From NCBI GenBank assembly GCA_009873655.1, contig WAIB01000008.1, positions 21,655 to 85,654 on the forward strand: 64,000 bases of DNA, given 5' to 3'. The translations under genes were made by a program, and so were the position numbers. Shown in pieces: positions 4,986-52,862 of the stretch. The first letter of the stretch is position 1, and each line of letters opens with the position of its first letter. Source of the stretch: Nitrospinota bacterium. GTDB lineage: Bacteria > Nitrospinota > Nitrospinia > Nitrospinales > VA-1. The notes under the pieces were generated by a model. The model saw nothing but the letters and a program-made list of their open reading frames with translations. It had not been told where the DNA came from and did not search any database.

Positions 4986-6089
4986 ATGGACGATTGGGCC
5001 TACTGCCAACAAACACTACCTAAAGTAAGTAGAACCTTTGCCTTGAATATTAAAGTATTACAAGGCGAACTGTACCGCAGCATATTGATTGCCTACCTGT
5101 TTTGCCGAACCGTCGACACCGTGGAAGACGCAACTGAACTGGACCCGAAAGTTAAAATCAGACTGCTATTGGAGTTTTCCCGTTTAATTGAAGACCCGGA
5201 TTATCGACAAAGCCATCTCGAAATCTGGACTAAAGATTGTGCTGTTGTGGATGGAAGCATGAACGATCTGGATCTTCTAAAAAATATCAAACGCGTTTTC
5301 AATATTTTTGATTCGCTAAAAGAAAATCACCAGAAACAAATCATTCCATCGGTCTCAAAAATGGCTAAGGGAATGGCACACTTCCAAAACCGGTTTCAAT
5401 TTGGGGAAATCACCCCGTTGGAAGACGAAAAAGACCTGGAAGAATATTGTTACTTTGTAGCGGGAGTTGTGGGTGAAATGTTATGCAATCTTTTCCTGCA
5501 AAAGCTCACATCACTGTCCCCACAGGCAAAAAACATCATGAAAGAAAATGCCGTCTCATTTGGCCTTGGGTTGCAAATGACCAATATTTCAAAGGATATT
5601 ATGGCTGACCGTGACCGGGGCTGGTCCTACATTCCCAAAAGCCTGATTGTCTCAAATGGACTGACTGTGGACGAATTCCATTCAGGAAAGTCAGTAGAGA
5701 AAAATCTGCAAATACTTGAAATCCTGCTTTGTAAAACAAAAGGGCATTTACAAGACGCGTTAAAATTCACACTCGCCATTCCAAGAACGGAAATATCTTT
5801 GCGACTGTTTTGCATTTGGCCCCTTTGGATGGCAATGAAAACCGTCGCCGCTCTTCACAACAACCCGGCGTTGTTAAAATCGAGTGCACCGGTAAAAATC
5901 TCTCGAAGCCAGGTAAAACGAATTTTATTGTTAACTCCGCTGATTGCGTGGTCAAATTCATTTCTAAAATTTTCTTTCAATAACATCCTCGGGAAAAAAG
6001 ACTTTAAGAAATATCCTGATTTTGACCTTAAAGGCCTGCATCAAAGATTAGGTGAAATTTCCATGGAAAAAATTTCCTCTAACATTTAA
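4986..6089 (+). CDS. squalene/phytoene synthase family protein
   Basis: SRTFALNI, FCRTVDTVEDA Asp-rich motif, TNISKDIMADRDRGWSYIP. Confidence 0.88.
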   Translation: MDDWAYCQQTLPKVSRTFALNIKVLQGELYRSILIAYLFCRTVDTVEDATELDPKVKIRLLLEFSRLIEDPDYRQSHLEIWTKDCAVVDGSMNDLDLLKNIKRVFNIFDSLKENHQKQIIPSVSKMAKGMAHFQNRFQFGEITPLEDEKDLEEYCYFVAGVVGEMLCNLFLQKLTSLSPQAKNIMKENAVSFGLGLQMTNISKDIMADRDRGWSYIPKSLIVSNGLTVDEFHSGKSVEKNLQILEILLCKTKGHLQDALKFTLAIPRTEISLRLFCIWPLWMAMKTVAALHNNPALLKSSAPVKISRSQVKRILLLTPLIAWSNSFLKFSFNNILGKKDFKKYPDFDLKGLHQRLGEISMEKISSNI

Positions 6090-6602: not shown

Positions 6603-7049
6603 TTGAATAAAAAACGCCTAATTTCAATTGCTGGGGGTCTCTGGTGCATCATTGGTTTCTTTCTTGTTGTCCGTGGAATGAGGTTATATCAACTCGCGGA
6701 AATGGAACAACACGCTACCGTAATCGCGATTACCATCTCCGGAGTCATTGCGGGTTTGATCGGTCTGGTAAAAGGAAAATTTGTTCTGAGCAAAACAGCA
6801 ACTCGTAATAAAAACCGCATCTACAACCTGGATGACCCGGTAAGTATTCAGGATCTTTTTTCCAAACCCCTCTATTTTTTGATCCCCATTATGATGGGTT
6901 TTGGTGTTCTGCTTCGATCTTACAACGAATACCTGGGAGGATATATCGTTGTTGCTGCAATTTATTGCGGGATAGGGATGGCATTGATCGTATCCAGCCG
7001 GGTTTACTGGTTTTCAAAATCCGAAATTCAAGAACCAGAGCAATCTTAG
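6603..7049 (+). CDS. hypothetical membrane protein
   Basis: ORF with several hydrophobic helices; TTG start. Confidence 0.5.
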   Translation: MNKKRLISIAGGLWCIIGFFLVVRGMRLYQLAEMEQHATVIAITISGVIAGLIGLVKGKFVLSKTATRNKNRIYNLDDPVSIQDLFSKPLYFLIPIMMGFGVLLRSYNEYLGGYIVVAAIYCGIGMALIVSSRVYWFSKSEIQEPEQS

Positions 7050-7064
7050 ACAACCAACTCAAAA

Positions 7065-7472
7065 ATGAAGAATTTCTTTCTTACCCTGCATATGATTTCA
7101 ATGTGCCTGGTCATCGGCACTTTGTTCCTTCAATCCCTAACGGTAGTATTCCGATTACGGCTGAAATCCGCCGAAGAAGCGAAGGGGCTTGAGAAAACGC
7201 AGACCCGAATTCACAAGTTCATCTATTATCCAATACTCGGAGTGACCCTGATATCCGGGGTCGTCCTCGCAGTTAAAACCGGAGCATTCTCTGAAGGCAA
7301 ATGGCTTCACGTAAAATTAGGTCTCCTGATGGTTTTGGTTGCTCTGGGAGTACAAAACGGCAGGCAGATTAAAGAAGCCGTTCTTCCAAAAAAATATGCA
7401 ATGATGGTACACATTGCCATCTTCATTGTCGGGGCATACATGATTTATCTCGCCACCATCAAACCTTTTTAA
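7065..7472 (+). CDS. small integral membrane protein (CopD/SirB-like)
   Basis: Four predicted TM helices with conserved H residues. Confidence 0.5.
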   Translation: MKNFFLTLHMISMCLVIGTLFLQSLTVVFRLRLKSAEEAKGLEKTQTRIHKFIYYPILGVTLISGVVLAVKTGAFSEGKWLHVKLGLLMVLVALGVQNGRQIKEAVLPKKYAMMVHIAIFIVGAYMIYLATIKPF

Positions 7473-7604
7473 ATGGACATCCTTTTCACACTTGTTGCCA
7501 GCGTTGTCCTGATCATCGGCTTTCTTGTAGTCTGTCGTTCCGTGGACGAAGAAGAGGATGAAGAGGAACCCGGCAATGGCACGGACAACCCCAACCACCC
7601 TTAA
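7473..7604 (+). CDS. possible 43-aa single-TM small protein with acidic tail
   Basis: Hand-translated MDILFTLVASVVLIIGFLVVCRSVDEEEDEEEPGNGTDNPNHP*; starts directly after the preceding stop and overlaps the next CDS in another frame. Confidence 0.35.
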   Translation: MDILFTLVASVVLIIGFLVVCRSVDEEEDEEEPGNGTDNPNHP

Positions 7605-8178
7605 AACTTTCAAACAACTGGAAAAGCAGGCTGCTGACTGCCGCCTCTGCCCGGCCATGGCAGACCAGCCTGCCATACTGAGTAAAGCCAACGGGAACCT
7701 GCACGCAAATATTGTTTTCGTCGCCGAAGCTCCGGGCCGGTTTGGCGCAGGTCGCACCGGAATCCCTTTTCATGGAGATAAATCAGGGGACAACTTCGAA
7801 ACGCTGCTTGCCCATATTGGATTGACACGCAAAGATGTCTTTATAACCAATGCCGCGCTGTGCAATCCTCTTGAAAACGGAAATAATAGAAGACCTAAAA
7901 CAAGTGAAATTAAAAACTGCCAGCCATTTTTAAAAAAAACCCTCGACCTCATTTGTCCTGAGGTTGTCGTTACCTTGGGTTCCACGGGCCTTCAGGCAAT
8001 CAACTTGATTTTAGGTACCCGGTATCAACTGAAAGACCGAGTTGCCCAACCCCTCACCACCCCCGGTTTTATCCTCTTTCCCCTCTATCACCCAAGCCCA
8101 CGGGTAACCAACTGGATGAGGCCGCTGGCACAGCAAAAAAAAGATTTCAAAAAAATCCCTCGTAGCACCGGCGAATAG
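7576..8178 (+). CDS. uracil-DNA glycosylase family protein (family 4/5-like)
   Basis: CRLCPAM, VAEAPGRFGAGRTGIPFHGDKSG, PLYHPSPR; start could instead be 7558. Confidence 0.8.
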   Translation: MARTTPTTLKTFKQLEKQAADCRLCPAMADQPAILSKANGNLHANIVFVAEAPGRFGAGRTGIPFHGDKSGDNFETLLAHIGLTRKDVFITNAALCNPLENGNNRRPKTSEIKNCQPFLKKTLDLICPEVVVTLGSTGLQAINLILGTRYQLKDRVAQPLTTPGFILFPLYHPSPRVTNWMRPLAQQKKDFKKIPRSTGE

Positions 8179-8341
8179 ACACTCTTCAAGATACCAAAAG
8201 AAACCGCCCCTGGAAGTGGATCCGTTTATCAATGCCAAAAGCATTAAATTTCAAATGTTTCCCTGGTTTACTTCCTTTCCCACAGAGGTTGACAAAGGGA
8301 AAGGGAGATTTTATATGTTTATAAGGAACAGGAGGTGAACC

Positions 8342-8647
8342 ATGTATTTTAACAACAATATTTCAAACTCCTTTTTAACAAGAGGCCATCGAACCCTTAC
8401 CTGGGGAACGGTTCTTTTGGGGACCGTATTATTTCTCCTTGCTCTTTTAATTTTTGCTTATCCCGCATTGATCGCCTACTTCATCGCGGCCGTTATTTTG
8501 TTTGCGGGTTTGTCTGCGCTTGCCATTGGTTGGAAGCTTTGGCGACTGCGAAATGAAATTACCAAGCTTGAAAAAATGGAAGATGACCCTTTCTTCAACA
8601 GGTCACCAGAAACTCATCGCGGTTATTTCACTTATATCCGATGGTAA
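8342..8647 (+). CDS. hypothetical two-TM membrane protein
   Basis: Strong RBS (aggaggtgaacc) before ATG; two hydrophobic helices. Confidence 0.6.
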   Translation: MYFNNNISNSFLTRGHRTLTWGTVLLGTVLFLLALLIFAYPALIAYFIAAVILFAGLSALAIGWKLWRLRNEITKLEKMEDDPFFNRSPETHRGYFTYIRW

Positions 8648-45808: not shown

Positions 45809-46333
45809 ATGCTGAGTGAACACGACCGGGAAACCAGTTTAAAATCAGTTTATAGCCCCATAGAAAAATGGCTGAAAAAGATATTCCACATTGACTCTGC
45901 GACAAAAGAAAAATCCGGCGTTGACAGAAGAGATTTTTTCAGACTCTCGCATGATGAAATCCAGCCTTTGGATCTTTGCCTGACCATGCAGGATGAGCAG
46001 GTTTTTTGCACCACCATTGAAGACCTGAGTGCCAGCGGTTTCAGTTGCCGACTGGCCGAATCCGGCACCATTCATTGCGGGGAACCCATGTCCGCCTTGT
46101 TTGTTCTGGCACTGGAAGAGCCTGTCATCATCCGGACCGAGGTTTTTCTGGTCTCCATAGAAGGATCCAAGGACGATAGAATTTTCCGGTTCCGATTTTT
46201 TGATGAGATGAATGATGATGACCGTGAACTGATTCACCGGTACATTGTCCAGAAGCAATTTGAACTGCTTGAAACCAAAAACAGGGAAAACTGGCATGAA
46301 GAAGAAGAGCCAGGTTCTTTAGGTAGAGATTAG
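45809..46333 (+). CDS. PilZ-domain-like protein
   Basis: RRDFFRLSHDE ... DLSASGFSC pattern. Confidence 0.7.
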   Translation: MLSEHDRETSLKSVYSPIEKWLKKIFHIDSATKEKSGVDRRDFFRLSHDEIQPLDLCLTMQDEQVFCTTIEDLSASGFSCRLAESGTIHCGEPMSALFVLALEEPVIIRTEVFLVSIEGSKDDRIFRFRFFDEMNDDDRELIHRYIVQKQFELLETKNRENWHEEEEPGSLGRD

Positions 46334-47269
46334 GGCATCCACGAAGGTTTCCGAATCAAAGGCCTGCAGGTCGTCTGCTTTTTCTCCCACTCCAATAAAA
46401 TGAACCGGCAATTTTAATTCTCCGGACAAATTAAGCAAAACCCCCCCTTTTGCCGTACCATCCAGTTTGGTCATTACAAACCCGTCCAGGTCCAGTGCTT
46501 CGTGAAAAAGTTTTGCCTGTGAAATACTGTTCTGCCCCAACGTGGCATCGAGAACCAATAGAGTTTCATGAGGTGCGCCGGGCAGAACTTTTCCTATCAC
46601 CCGTTTTACTTTTTTAAGTTCTTCCATTAAATTCTGGTTGGTCTGCAATCGTCCTGCGGTATCTATGAGCACCACATCCATGTTTCTTGCCACCGCAGCC
46701 TGGACTGCGTCATAGGCCACAGCCGAAGGATCAGCCCCGCTTTTCTGGCTGATGCAGTTTATTCCCGCACGTTCAGCCCACACTTGCAACTGGTCTATCG
46801 CCGCCGCCCGAAACGTGTCTCCTGCCGCTAACAGCACCTTTTTGCCTTCCTGTTTCCATTTTTGCGCAAGCTTGCCTATGGTAGTGGTTTTACCCGAGCC
46901 ATTTATTCCAACCATTAAAATTACCAGGGGTTTGTTTGCATTGAACTCTATGGGTTTTTTGTTTTGTGAAAGGACTTCTATCATCCTTCCCTTCAGATGT
47001 TTTAATACCTCATCATTTTCCCGAAGACGATTTTGCGCCACATCCTTTTTTAAATCTTCCAGAATGAACTCAGTGGTCTCCATGCCGACATCTGCAATAA
47101 GCAGAGTCTCTTCAAGTTCTTCCAACAGTTCCGGCCCCACTTTGGCCTTTCCCTGGACGATATTTTCTATCCCTCCAGCCAGGCTGGACCGGGTTTTTTG
47201 AAGTCCCGATTTCAGGCGGGCAAAAAATCCGGTTTTGGCCTCTTCCCCTGTTTGCTCCATTTCTTCCAT
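46319..47269 (-). CDS. ftsY: signal recognition particle receptor FtsY
   Basis: [55 protein letters not shown]. Confidence 0.96.
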
Positions 47270-47539: not shown

Positions 47540-49327
47540 ATGAAAGTCGCCGTTTGTAATTCCGTTGGAATTGATGCCGATGGCTATGCAATGATTCACT
47601 CACCCAGCCGTTGGACCAATAGCACCAAGGACCACAATATTTTTACCTACTACCCCTGGCAGCTTGCCTATTGTTCGTCCATCCTGAAAAGGGATACCGA
47701 CCATGAGGTCAAATTTTTTGATGGCTGCCTTGAAAAATGGGATCACGATGCCTTTGTTGAAAAGGTTTCAGAATTTGCCCCTGACTATCTGATTATGGAT
47801 TGCGCCACGCGCACCATAGATGCCGATAGCCGGTTTGGGAAAGAAATAAAGCGCCGGTTTGGAACCAAACTTATTTTTTGCGGCCCTCATCCCACGACCT
47901 TTCCGGAAGAAGTCAGCGAATATGCCGATTATGTGGTCCTTCGCGAATACGAAATGGTTGTCCTTGATATTCTGCAGGGAAAAGACCCCAACGACATAAT
48001 GGGTCTCTGGCCAAACACCAATATTCGACCGCCCCTGGACGTCAACAATCTGCCCTTACCTGAAGACGATGACGTGTCTCGACTCGATTACGGGATGCCG
48101 GGTGAACCCTCCAGCGAATACCTGGAAATTCAGGCCTACGCCTCACGGGGTTGCCCATTATCCTGCACCTTCTGCGTTTGCGGGAATATTTCTTATCAAC
48201 GGCCCAATTGGCGCCCCCGAAACCCTGAAAATGTGGTTTACGAACTGCAGACCCTTAGGGAGAAATATCCCCAGCTGGAAGGAATCTTTTTCGATGAGGA
48301 GGTTCATAACGGAAGTAAAAAATATATTCTCGAGCTAACCAAGGCCATCCGCGAAAATGGTCTTGATGACCTGAAATACGATGTCATGTGCGGCCAGTGG
48401 CCTATGGATGAAGAGGTCCTGGATAGCATGAAAAGCGCGGGCTACTACATGGTTAGACTTGGAATTGAAACTGCGGGAGAACATGCAGCAAAAGGCATGG
48501 AACTGCAAAAAAAATTCAATGTTCCAAGACTGAAGCAATTGATGCATCATGGAACCAATATCGGCTTGAAATTTTACGGAACCTTTACCTTTGGCGGCGA
48601 AGGGTCGACCGATGAATGTGACAAAAAAACCCTGGATCTCATTCGCGAATTACTGGACCGTGAACTGTTATGGAGATTTCAATTGTCCATCAGCACACCC
48701 CAGCCGGGAACTCCGTTTTTCAATCGCATGAAAGAGCAGGGACACCTTAAAGATGTGGACTGGAAACATTTTGATGGCGGAAATCATGTCGTGGTCAACC
48801 GTCCTGAATATCCCGCTGAAAAAATAATGGAAAACTTTCGAGAGGCTGAAAAGCTTTATGAGTTGGGCTTCAATCATCGCTATAAAAAAACCGCGCAAGA
48901 CAATTTTAAATCCGTCAAGCTCAAGCAAGACGGTGAAATCCTGTTGTTTCGCAGTTCAAGAATGAAGCAGGTCAATGATGTGGTCAATTCCCTGCATAAC
49001 CAGTTTAAAAAAGATGTGACTGTCCTTGCACAACCTTCTGTTGAAACAGAACTTCGGAAAAACCCGCATGTCAACGAAGTCCTTTTGTATGGTGACAATC
49101 ATTTCAACCAGAAAACTTTTCCAGACAGCATGGTTGGAAAACTGAGAAAAAAATCTTACTCCTTGGGTGTGATTCCCTTCAATAATATTTCCGGAAATGG
49201 TTACTCCGAGATAAAAGCCATTGCAAAACAATCCGGAATTGAAAAACTGGTCGCAGTGAATGTTGAAGGAAAGGTTTTTGACCTTGAAAACCCCGGTGAT
49301 TTTGGGCGGGCCCATATTCCTGGATAA
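47540..49327 (+). CDS. radical SAM/B12-binding-type protein with C-terminal GT9-N-like domain (paralog 1)
   Basis: B12-like N-domain (FCGPHPTTFPEE), CPLSCTFC, GIFFDEEVH, C-terminal GEILLFRSSRM...VTVLAQPS; start moved from 47438 to an ATG with an aaggaaa RBS. Confidence 0.88.
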   Translation: MKVAVCNSVGIDADGYAMIHSPSRWTNSTKDHNIFTYYPWQLAYCSSILKRDTDHEVKFFDGCLEKWDHDAFVEKVSEFAPDYLIMDCATRTIDADSRFGKEIKRRFGTKLIFCGPHPTTFPEEVSEYADYVVLREYEMVVLDILQGKDPNDIMGLWPNTNIRPPLDVNNLPLPEDDDVSRLDYGMPGEPSSEYLEIQAYASRGCPLSCTFCVCGNISYQRPNWRPRNPENVVYELQTLREKYPQLEGIFFDEEVHNGSKKYILELTKAIRENGLDDLKYDVMCGQWPMDEEVLDSMKSAGYYMVRLGIETAGEHAAKGMELQKKFNVPRLKQLMHHGTNIGLKFYGTFTFGGEGSTDECDKKTLDLIRELLDRELLWRFQLSISTPQPGTPFFNRMKEQGHLKDVDWKHFDGGNHVVVNRPEYPAEKIMENFREAEKLYELGFNHRYKKTAQDNFKSVKLKQDGEILLFRSSRMKQVNDVVNSLHNQFKKDVTVLAQPSVETELRKNPHVNEVLLYGDNHFNQKTFPDSMVGKLRKKSYSLGVIPFNNISGNGYSEIKAIAKQSGIEKLVAVNVEGKVFDLENPGDFGRAHIPG

Positions 49328-49330
49328 ATT

Positions 49331-49936
49331 ATGACTGAAGAAAACAGATCCAAAAAGATTCTTGTCATCCGTTCAGCCACCCGAATACTCGGGCAGACGA
49401 TTGTCTCTTTGCGAAAAGAGTTTCCCGGATGCCACATAACCGTTCTGGGGCCCCAGTCCGCAAAAGAGTCGATGGAACAGGACAAGCAAATCGACGAGGT
49501 ATTGACCATTCCTGACCAGCGACGCATGAGTGTCTCCAGTCTCGGCAAGGAAAACATCCGTCGACTGCAGGAAAAGAATTTCGATCTGGCCGTTTCCCTC
49601 TACAACATAGACCACGGCCTGGGCTATTCCAACATCGACAAACTGGCCTGTACCGCCAAGGCTAAATGCGCAAGAGGTTATAATTCCCGAGGAACCTTTG
49701 TAGAAATAAACTCATCTACGGCCAGGAATAAATCCTTTCTTGAAAAAACGACCTACTTCTGGGTCACCGCAAATTACATTGCCACCATCACCTTGTTTTT
49801 CGTCATCACCCTGGCATTGACCGGAGAGTGGTTTTTCAGATTGTTTTTCCGGAAAAAACAGGGTTCCCCCAAAGCAGCCCATTCCGTCCAGGAATCACCC
49901 ACATCTGTTCCCGAGCCGGTAAAGGCACAGGTTTAA
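49331..49936 (+). CDS. stand-alone GT9-N-like domain protein with C-terminal TM helix
   Basis: KKILVIRSATRILGQTIVSLRKEFPGCHITVLGPQS...; IATITLFFVITLAL TM; 3 nt after the upstream stop. Confidence 0.75.
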   Translation: MTEENRSKKILVIRSATRILGQTIVSLRKEFPGCHITVLGPQSAKESMEQDKQIDEVLTIPDQRRMSVSSLGKENIRRLQEKNFDLAVSLYNIDHGLGYSNIDKLACTAKAKCARGYNSRGTFVEINSSTARNKSFLEKTTYFWVTANYIATITLFFVITLALTGEWFFRLFFRKKQGSPKAAHSVQESPTSVPEPVKAQV

Positions 49937-49940
49937 GGAC

Positions 49941-51689
49941 ATGGATATCCTTGTCGCTAATTCGGTAGGGGTGGACCGTGAAGGCTTTCACATGGTTCAT
50001 GTTCCCTCACGTTGGTCGCTGGGAGTAAAAAATTTCACCAATTGCGGGTACTACCCCTGGCAGTTGGCCTATACCTCCTCTCTTTTAAAAAGAGATACCC
50101 CTTACAACATCAAATTTTTGGACGGAGTCCTGAAGGGTTGGGATGTAGAAACTTATCTGCAGCATGCAGGAAAACCCGACTGGCTGGTCATGGAAAGTTC
50201 TACCCGAACGATCAAGGAAGACTTACGTTTTGCAAAATCCCTTAAAGAAAATTTTGGGACCCGGCTCATATTTACCGGTCAGCATCCCATGGCACATCCC
50301 GAAGAGGTTTTAAAAACAGCCGACCATGTCTGTATCGGGGAATATGAATTTGCCGTCCTGCACCTGATCCAGGGAAAAGACCCGACCCAAATTGCCGGAG
50401 TCTACCCCAATGAAAGAGGAAGTTTGATTGATATAAATCAACTGCCTTTTCCAGAGGATGAGGATGTAAGCCGCATCGACTACCACGAACCCAATTGCAG
50501 ATACAAACAGATTCAAATGTACGGATCAAGAGGATGCCCGCGCCGCTGTAATTTTTGCGCGGCCGCCACCCTTTACTATGACGAACTGAATTGGCGGCCT
50601 CGCCATGTCGACAGCATCGTTCAGGAAATCCAAATTCTCCATGAAAAATATCCCGAAATGGAAGGTGTATTTTTTGATGAAGAAGTCCACAATATCAAAA
50701 AGAGTTTCAATATTTCCCTGGCCAGGGCTATCCGGGAAGCCGGCTTGCAGGATTTGAAATATGAGGCCATGTGCGAATACGCATCTCTGGACGAAGAAGC
50801 CATGGAAGAAATGCGCAAAGCGGGATATTACAAAATTCGTTTTGGTATCGAAACAGGAAGCGACCGGGTGGCAGAAAAAATGACTCTTGGGAAAAAGCAT
50901 GACCTGAAAAAGTTAAAAGCCATGGTGGAATTTGGAAAGAGCATTGGAATGCTTTTTTATGGAACCATCAGCGTTGGCGGACTGGGCTCTGATAAAAACG
51001 AAGACCAGAAAACGGTCGACCTGGTCTACGATCTGGCAGCAAAAGGCTGGCTGGATGAAATTCAGGTCTCCATCAACACTCCACAACCTGGAACGGACTT
51101 CTATCATTCATGCGCCCAAGAATCCTTTATACCCCTGTCAAAGGATTGGGATGGTTTTGACGGAAACGGACATGTGGTTGTAAATTATCCCCACTACCCC
51201 GCAGAAGAAATTCAAACCAGTTTCAAAAATGCCCTGAACGCATTTGATCTGGGTAAAGGCAAGGCACAGGCAAGAACCTTTTCAGAAAACACCAATGCTT
51301 CTTCCATTCCGGCCGGATCACGAATTCTCATACTTAGATGCGTAAGAAGCTGGATGATCAGGCTCCTGATCGAAAATCTTTCTCCAAAAAATAAAGCGGA
51401 TGTCCTTGGGCAGGATTCTTCCCTGTACGACCTAAAGGATTTATCAGGGTTGGATAAATTTTATTCTTATGGAAACGGTTTTTTTGCCGTCGAATCGATT
51501 TCTTCTGTATTAACAAAAGAATTAAAAGATAATCATTATGACCTCGTTCTCATTCCCGTAGCCAACAACCACCTTGACGGTTTTCAGAATGTCCTTGAAG
51601 TCGCCCATTTGATCGAACCGGAGAAAATCAGCTACGTCTACCCGGAGGGCTTAATCCAGCCAATTGAGGATTCACCTGTAAGGGTTTAA
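49941..51689 (+). CDS. radical SAM/B12-binding-type protein with C-terminal GT9-N-like domain (paralog 2)
   Basis: CPRRCNFC, FTGQHPMAHPEE, GVFFDEEVH, C-terminal SRILILRCVRSWMIRLLI...ADVLGQDS. Confidence 0.88.
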   Translation: MDILVANSVGVDREGFHMVHVPSRWSLGVKNFTNCGYYPWQLAYTSSLLKRDTPYNIKFLDGVLKGWDVETYLQHAGKPDWLVMESSTRTIKEDLRFAKSLKENFGTRLIFTGQHPMAHPEEVLKTADHVCIGEYEFAVLHLIQGKDPTQIAGVYPNERGSLIDINQLPFPEDEDVSRIDYHEPNCRYKQIQMYGSRGCPRRCNFCAAATLYYDELNWRPRHVDSIVQEIQILHEKYPEMEGVFFDEEVHNIKKSFNISLARAIREAGLQDLKYEAMCEYASLDEEAMEEMRKAGYYKIRFGIETGSDRVAEKMTLGKKHDLKKLKAMVEFGKSIGMLFYGTISVGGLGSDKNEDQKTVDLVYDLAAKGWLDEIQVSINTPQPGTDFYHSCAQESFIPLSKDWDGFDGNGHVVVNYPHYPAEEIQTSFKNALNAFDLGKGKAQARTFSENTNASSIPAGSRILILRCVRSWMIRLLIENLSPKNKADVLGQDSSLYDLKDLSGLDKFYSYGNGFFAVESISSVLTKELKDNHYDLVLIPVANNHLDGFQNVLEVAHLIEPEKISYVYPEGLIQPIEDSPVRV

Positions 51690-52862
51690 TCAGGTACCGG
51701 TAGTTTCCTTTTTAACCGGATTGGGTTTGGGATTGATCATATTTTTTTTGGTAAGAATGTCGATCAGGTTTTTATCCCTGCAGGATGTTGCAATGTCAAT
51801 CAATCCATCACCGTTAAAATCGCCAACAGCCATTCCCTGCGGATGTTGATCGACCGGGTGAAAAATGGGGGGATAAGTGAAAGTACCGTCTCCCTTACCC
51901 AGAGAAACGGATATCAGGTCATCGGTTGAATTGGAAACGGCAATATCCTCTAATCCATCTCCGGTAAAATCAGCGGCAACCACAAATTTGGGGAAATTCC
52001 CCGATGCAAAATCCCTCAGGCTGGAAAAGGTTTTATCCTTGTTATTTATAAGAGTGGTCAGGGCATGAAGGGAATTACTTGAAGTTACAATATCCAGAAA
52101 GCCATCGTTATTGACATCTATATTCACTACCGTGAGAGGCTGTTTGCCGCCTTTAAAAACTTTTGAAGTTTCAAATTCGCCATCGCCTTTCCCCCACAAA
52201 ATCTGAACTCCCGTATTTCCTGATCCTGCGAGCCCGACAGCGACATCTATATTTTTGTCGTGGTTATAATCACCAATAACAATTCCCGTAGGCTGGCCGT
52301 TGACATCTATCGTTACCGGTTCCTTGAAAAACCCGTTTCCTTTCCCAAGAATAATAACCACCTGAAAATAACGCATGGTAACCGCAAGATCCGGATTTCC
52401 ATCGTTATTAAAGTCACCCGAAATCATATTTATGGGAATTTTTCCCGGCTTTAGAATTTGTTTCGCTCTTTTGAAACTTCCCAACCGAGTATTTAAAAAT
52501 ATTTGAATGGTTTGATCGGCATAGTTGAGTTCCGCAATATCTTTATAACCATCTTTATTGAAATCGCCTGAAACCAGACAAATGGGATCCCGACCGGTGT
52601 TGTAAACCAGTTGTTCATTGAATGTTCCATCCCCAATTCCCTTATAAAAGGAAAAAGAATGGCCCCCACTGTTTGCCACTACCAGATCTAAAATATTATC
52701 CCGGTTAAAATCATCGGTGATTAGAAAGGACGGCTCTCGCCCTGTTTCCAGGGTATTGGTCAACGCAAAAATGCGCGGCATTTTTCTTCTGGCTTTTGGA
52801 GGCGGGCAGCCAAACAAAACAAAAACCAGCAGCAGGCTAACTAAGATATGGAATTTCTTCAT
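51690..52862 (-). CDS. FG-GAP/VCBS repeat lipoprotein
   Basis: Lipobox VLFGC; repeated DFNxDGxxDIA motifs. Confidence 0.88.
   Translation of the reverse strand: MKKFHILVSLLLVFVLFGCPPPKARRKMPRIFALTNTLETGREPSFLITDDFNRDNILDLVVANSGGHSFSFYKGIGDGTFNEQLVYNTGRDPICLVSGDFNKDGYKDIAELNYADQTIQIFLNTRLGSFKRAKQILKPGKIPINMISGDFNNDGNPDLAVTMRYFQVVIILGKGNGFFKEPVTIDVNGQPTGIVIGDYNHDKNIDVAVGLAGSGNTGVQILWGKGDGEFETSKVFKGGKQPLTVVNIDVNNDGFLDIVTSSNSLHALTTLINNKDKTFSSLRDFASGNFPKFVVAADFTGDGLEDIAVSNSTDDLISVSLGKGDGTFTYPPIFHPVDQHPQGMAVGDFNGDGLIDIATSCRDKNLIDILTKKNMINPKPNPVKKETTGT

Follow-up and report, generated by a model that had tools for sequence, protein, structure and literature searches.

What function is served by placing the same half of a GT9 glycosyltransferase in two radical S-adenosylmethionine (SAM) proteins and in the small membrane protein encoded between them? 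The question is raised by a three-gene operon on the + strand of a 64,000-nucleotide stretch of a Nitrospinota bacterium genome (assembly GCA_009873655.1, contig WAIB01000008.1, positions 21,655 to 85,654), the whole of which is referred to here as the window. The open reading frames P1, P2, and P3 encode proteins of 595, 201, and 582 amino acids and lie where the initial annotation had placed them; the intergenic gaps that it gave, 3 nt between P1 and P2 and 4 nt between P2 and P3, were confirmed from the open reading frame coordinates. P1 (47540-49327, + strand) comprises a B12-binding-like domain and a radical SAM domain (residues ~1 to 440) followed by a C-terminal domain resembling the N-terminal half of GT9 enzymes (half-GT9; residues ~465 to 585), as judged from PF02310 and PF04055 matches, the CxxxCxxC motif, and profile homology. 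P3 (49941-51689, + strand) has the same B12-binding-like, radical SAM, and C-terminal half-GT9 (residues ~452 to 574) architecture, based on PF04055 and an AlphaFold2 model. P2 (49331-49936, + strand) consists of a half-GT9 domain (residues 1 to 127), a long hydrophobic helix (residues 128 to 172), and a short tail, as delineated by AlphaFold2, hydropathy, and Foldseek. The P1 start, an ATG at 47540, is conserved, and its orthologs are mostly 594 to 595 amino acids long.

The proposal that one domain is common to all three products was borne out, and the reading made by eye proved a good one. In BLASTP comparisons of single sequences, P2 matched the P1 tail significantly (E of 2e-6; 29% identity over 103 amino acids), whereas P2 and P3 gave no significant match (E of 0.27), so that the by-eye alignment needed the support of profiles. 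Profile-profile comparisons (hhalign) of domain alignments containing 10, 19, and 20 nonredundant members gave 99.0% (p of 4e-18) for the P1 tail against P2, 99.6% (p of 1.5e-24) for the P1 tail against the P3 tail, and 97.5% (p of 5e-12) for P2 against the P3 tail. These profiles firmly support the P1 tail, the P3 tail, and the soluble part of P2 as a single homologous domain. The domain profile places it at approximately residues 460 to 582 of P1 (48917-49285, + strand; E of 2.2e-44; own genome G000:C58:70571-70939) and 453 to 574 of P3 (51297-51662, + strand; E of 3.9e-40; own genome G000:C58:72951-73316). The AlphaFold2 models likewise contain related rather than unrelated folds, with the strand and helix order of the P3 tail (model pLDDT of 91.2, pTM of 0.90) being the same as that of P2 and both having Rossmann topology; the P2 model (pLDDT of 84.7) contains five strand-helix units that lead into the helix at residues 128 to 172. 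None of the Pfam or NCBIfam models names this domain.

The resemblance of the domain to the N-terminal Rossmann half of GT9, without the nucleotide-sugar-binding C-terminal half, had also been proposed initially and held up in profile-profile comparisons, profile matches to PDB, and Foldseek searches. When compared with 12 aligned full GT9 proteins of this phylum, P2 scored 98.3% (p of 2.5e-14), the P1 tail scored 94.9%, and the P3 tail scored only 44.5% but is tied to P2 and the P1 tail at 97 to 99%. The GT9 C-terminal half matched the half-GT9 domains at 0.3% or less, and all of the 20 column-shuffled control profiles remained at or below 4.2%. Among all PDB sequences, the domain profile matched heptosyltransferase II (1psw) best (E of 0.0029) and the P2-family profile matched the GT9 protein 3tov best (E of 0.0038), and a Foldseek search with the P2 model ranked 3tov first (E of 8.3e-5) and 1psw fourth. 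Nothing resembling a donor half follows the domain, as P2 runs into its membrane helix and P1 and P3 end there. From the sequence, then, we conclude firmly that the domain matches only the acceptor-binding half of GT9 and that the donor-binding half is missing. The GD motif after the first strand, present in 12 of 12 local GT9 proteins, was found at that place in none of the half-GT9 sequences. Because both the donor half and the GD motif have been lost, the half-GT9 copies would be catalytically dead and would no longer transfer sugars. Pfam searches of every domain member returned no GT9 match, which is weak evidence against a GT9 identity because PF01075 matches here begin well inside the GT9 proteins and skip much of the N-terminal half. 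Some short half-GT9 matches elsewhere (L111 and L237) proved to be full GT9 proteins or GT9 proteins cut by a contig end and were excluded by their GD motif. The second-best Foldseek match of P2 was a plant photosynthetic NDH subunit (9grx chain 1; E of 1.1e-4), to which the domain profile matched weakly (E of 1.8); this subunit may carry a GT9-derived domain.

Two other origins or uses of the domain bear on these comparisons. In one, the domain would be a generic Rossmann module (a second cobalamin site or a site for NAD or nucleotide-sugar) that provides the radical SAM enzymes with a cofactor or senses one for them, and the Rossmann fold and the weaker Foldseek matches to SDR and other Rossmann proteins are consistent with this. 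The half-GT9 domain matched the cobalamin-type domain of the same proteins at just 0.3 to 16.6%, over at most 27 columns, compared with 98% for the GT9 N-terminal half, and nucleotide binding in GT9 belongs to the other half; a second cobalamin domain was rejected, and the cofactor explanation as a whole appears highly improbable. In the other, P2 and the two tails would complete an active GT-B enzyme together with a C-terminal half whose gene lies at another site. GT-B enzymes can be constructed in split form (PMC10937113) and full GT9 genes are present in the genome, but the missing GD motif, the lack of an orphan donor half beside the cassette, and the placement of the three copies on other modules make this scarcely credible.

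The middle protein had been predicted to be membrane anchored, and a hydrophobic segment was found by hydropathy in 34 of 34 P2 orthologs. P2 evolves fast, and an exact-peptide scan of contigs from other genomes with P2 alone gave no match; relatives were recovered instead by scanning contigs with an alignment of the radical SAM proteins. P2 orthologs (E of <1e-15) are present in 35 of 60 related genomes, 2 of them as contig-edge fragments only. P1, P2, and P3 are contiguous and in the same order in 27 further Nitrospinota contigs (some of which end within P3), with identities to the window of 68 to 94% for P1, 44 to 73% for P2, and 64 to 88% for full-length P3. This neighborhood survey, covering independent genomes, argues against the fusions being an assembly artifact. 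The named relatives that share this operon are assemblies of Nitrospina and Nitrospinaceae, and the source genome is of the Nitrospinaceae type. The cassette is bordered on the left by the divergent ftsY gene (46319-47269, - strand) and on the right by a convergent gene for an FG-GAP-repeat lipoprotein (51690-52862, - strand), both conserved neighbors that lie outside it. In 5 genomes from 3 genera that lack the cassette (L250, L251, L252, L254, and L255), ftsY directly adjoins the FG-GAP gene. The intact trio and these empty sites together indicate that the three genes of the cassette are acquired or lost jointly, and no other evidence speaks as strongly for their working together. At the right border, the stop codons of P3 and the lipoprotein gene abut at 51689/51690 with zero spacer, so that both transcripts must end inside each other. 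At one locus (L104 in genome G015, 6862-8627; L150 is the corresponding place in Nitrospina sp. LS_NOB), a P1-like front is joined to a P3-like back with one frame change, and P2 and the rest are missing; this chimera represents either a deletion between paralogs or an assembly collapse.

P1 and P3 are 42% identical. P1 matches PF02310 (34.0 bits; cutoff, 32.1) and PF04055 (42.1 bits) above their cutoffs, while P3 matches PF04055 above its cutoff (53.3 bits) and PF02310 below it (23.7 bits). The CxxxCxxC cysteines (C199, C203, and C206 in P3 numbering) are invariant in 42 sequences and, with the PF04055 matches, assign both proteins to the radical SAM superfamily at the sequence level. For both, the best NCBIfam match is HpnJ (TIGR03471), which converts bacteriohopanetetrol (BHT)-glucosamine into BHT cyclitol ether (PMC12583986). 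The closest solved structure to the P3 model is AprD4 in complex with its aminosugar substrate paromamine (6fd2; E of 9e-20; TM of target, 0.79), and AprD4 is also the best PDB sequence match for P1. P1 and P3 belong to an HpnJ/AprD4-like group of radical SAM proteins. Both of these nearest characterized enzymes act on an aminosugar moiety, and by analogy P1 and P3 may do likewise. True HpnJ identity was rejected because the scores fall far below the TIGR03471 cutoff.

The HpnJ match raises the possibility that P1 and P3 are a divergent form of the HpnJ system with a hopanoid glycoside as substrate. A squalene-hopene cyclase is indeed encoded in the same genome, and a search of 41 genomes found one in 38. 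The cyclase is equally present in genomes that lack the cassette (G009, G016, G017, G042, and G048); no hpnI- or hpnK-like gene was found beside the cassette, whose conserved neighbors are ftsY, the FG-GAP lipoprotein gene, and an SDR gene; and orthologs in Omnitrophota adjoin GT2 genes in glycan-type clusters. Hopanoid chemistry is possible but is not favored, because hopene cyclase is widespread in the group, including where the cassette is absent, and we regard it as improbable.

Relatives beyond Nitrospinota place the radical SAM proteins in a glycosyltransferase context. An overlapping or abutting GT2 gene directly follows the radical SAM gene, whether tail-less or fused, in 13 of 29 loci outside Nitrospinota, with the GT2 identity confirmed by Pfam for three of the 13. 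Tail-less relatives of ~490 amino acids, sharing 45 to 50% identity with P1 or P3, are found in Omnitrophota, CSSED10-310, and B38, among others. Beyond Nitrospinota, a fused tail is rarely seen: 384 Omnitrophota genomes contained one fused protein, and others were found in both of the genomes searched from the phylum of L153 and L152 and at L151. In the radical SAM tree, P1 forms a clade with fused proteins L162 and L153a (support, 98/80 and 95/88), and P3 groups with fused L152 (98/94) and, at weak support, also with L151 and L153b. L153 carries one P1-like and one P3-like fused gene in tandem. By these groupings and the tandem, the P1/P3 pair is probably older than Nitrospinota. At L153 (4556-9678), which is from another small phylum, a gene for a DUF2784 membrane protein stands just before the second fused radical SAM gene, HisH/HisF-like and GT2 genes lie upstream of the tandem, and the reading frame of the first gene changes near position 5750. 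A more distant 616-amino-acid radical SAM protein with a half-GT9 C-terminal end, from a class-level relative (L110, 8257-10107, - strand), falls outside the P1/P3 group.

The half-GT9 domain is also encoded on its own in glycan clusters, as proteins of 165 to 205 amino acids that mostly have a hydrophobic C-terminal segment. The gene lies between GT2 and radical SAM genes at L070, L105, and L107, between two GT2 genes at L235, and next to GT4 and B12-type radical SAM genes at L106 and L109; the L105 cluster includes NeuB-type genes and flagellin. Maf/MptE-like genes are also among the neighbors, and another radical SAM gene is often nearby; GT4 and several other neighbors were named by eye. 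L105, L106, L107, L109, and L070 represent clusters of the flagellin-glycosylation or Maf type in other Nitrospinota families, and the stand-alone proteins form an unnamed family. At L071 (4675-6327, - strand), a half-GT9 domain with a hydrophobic segment precedes a GT4-type glycosyltransferase in one fused protein, which adds a second, independent partner to which the domain is joined.

Our tentative reading, held with somewhat less than even confidence, is that the cassette encodes a membrane-tethered radical SAM machine for remodeling a membrane lipid that bears sugar or a lipid-linked glycan. The catalysts would be P1 and P3, working in succession or on different positions; P2 would anchor them at the membrane, where the lipid-linked substrate would lie; and the half-GT9 domain would hold the glycan acceptor, pair with other half-GT9 copies, or both. 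In GT-B enzymes, acceptor binding is the task of the N-terminal domain (PMC10937113); in the GT9 enzyme HepI, it is carried out by the 60s and 120s loops of this domain (residues 1 to 152) (PMC8124905). The sugar substrate, the reaction, the holding of an acceptor, the physical complex, and the side of the membrane in such a machine we infer from these comparisons. A more specific version is possible but rather doubtful: the dead GT9 acceptor halves would constitute a novel adaptor, a substrate-holding and assembly domain that docks the paired radical SAM enzymes on a membrane copy so that radical chemistry can proceed on a lipid-linked glycan at the membrane.

The main competing explanation is pure assembly, in which the half-GT9 copies would bind each other and not sugar, pairing much like the two facing Rossmann halves of a GT-B enzyme, and would thereby recruit P1 and P3 to P2. 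The presence of the domain in all three products, the joint gain and loss of the genes, and the loss of the GD motif fit this explanation, separately expressed GT-B halves can self-assemble (PMC10937113), and the pTM of the P3 model suggests a rigidly placed tail. Stand-alone half-GT9 proteins in glycan clusters that have no fused radical SAM gene nearby (e.g., L235 and L107) and fused enzymes with no adjoining P2-like gene (L151, L152, and L162) speak against it, and we consider it unlikely. Pure assembly is no more likely than substrate docking, because the domain is the acceptor-binding half of GT9 and because the enzymes, like the domain, are encoded in glycan biosynthesis clusters elsewhere. 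The initial annotation had envisaged a shared carrier, substrate, or assembly module; an assembly role fits the loss of the GD motif and the presence or absence of the genes as a unit, but nothing was found that supports a carrier or substrate role.

Several observations weigh against a glycan-remodeling machine. The cassette in Nitrospinota has no adjoining glycosyltransferase or glycan gene. Tail-less orthologs exist without any half-GT9 fusion, so that the chemistry does not require the domain. The likeness to enzymes acting on aminosugars is distant, with HpnJ model scores of 126.4 (P1) and 148.2 (P3) bits against a cutoff of 577.6 and AprD4 model (NF033070) scores of ~47 bits for both proteins against a cutoff of 500. 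In one genus (L063 to L065), P2 and P3 (33 to 37% and 61 to 63% identity) occur without P1, and the trio is not strictly obligate.

The cassette is a new domain arrangement, with no named family, built from known superfamilies. The laboratory separability of glycosyltransferase halves was already known; neither the profile libraries nor the literature searched contained a natural family in which dead acceptor halves are fused to radical SAM enzymes, and literature searches on Nitrospina and radical SAM enzymes, or on radical SAM enzymes in polysaccharide clusters, found nothing relevant. If half-GT9 domains hold glycan acceptors, they would represent a reusable way for radical SAM enzymes to find lipid-linked sugars, the stand-alone family would gain its first functional hypothesis, and the cassette would point to a new sugar or lipid modification in Nitrospina, which are important marine nitrite oxidizers.

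The cassette can be compared with four known systems. The half-GT9 domain is collinear with the N-terminal Rossmann half of GT9 heptosyltransferases (WaaC/WaaF; 1psw, 2h1h, and 3tov) from the first strand to the "GAK.R.GY" strand, but it lacks their donor-binding C-terminal half and GD motif, has a new N-N-x-x-G-x-G-Y type motif where GT9 has D-x-x-G-x-x-K-S, and is attached either to a radical SAM enzyme or to a membrane helix. Over the full radical SAM part of P1 and P3, no named family matches better than HpnJ, yet the HpnJ model includes no half-GT9 tail and the cassette has no hpnI or hpnK neighbors. AprD4, a radical SAM 1,2-diol dehydratase acting on paromamine, is the closest structure to P3 but has neither a half-GT9 tail nor a membrane-anchored partner. 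The GT2-coupled radical SAM proteins of ~490 amino acids belong to the same radical SAM subfamily as P1 and P3, whereas they lack the half-GT9 tail and are often coupled to a GT2 gene instead.

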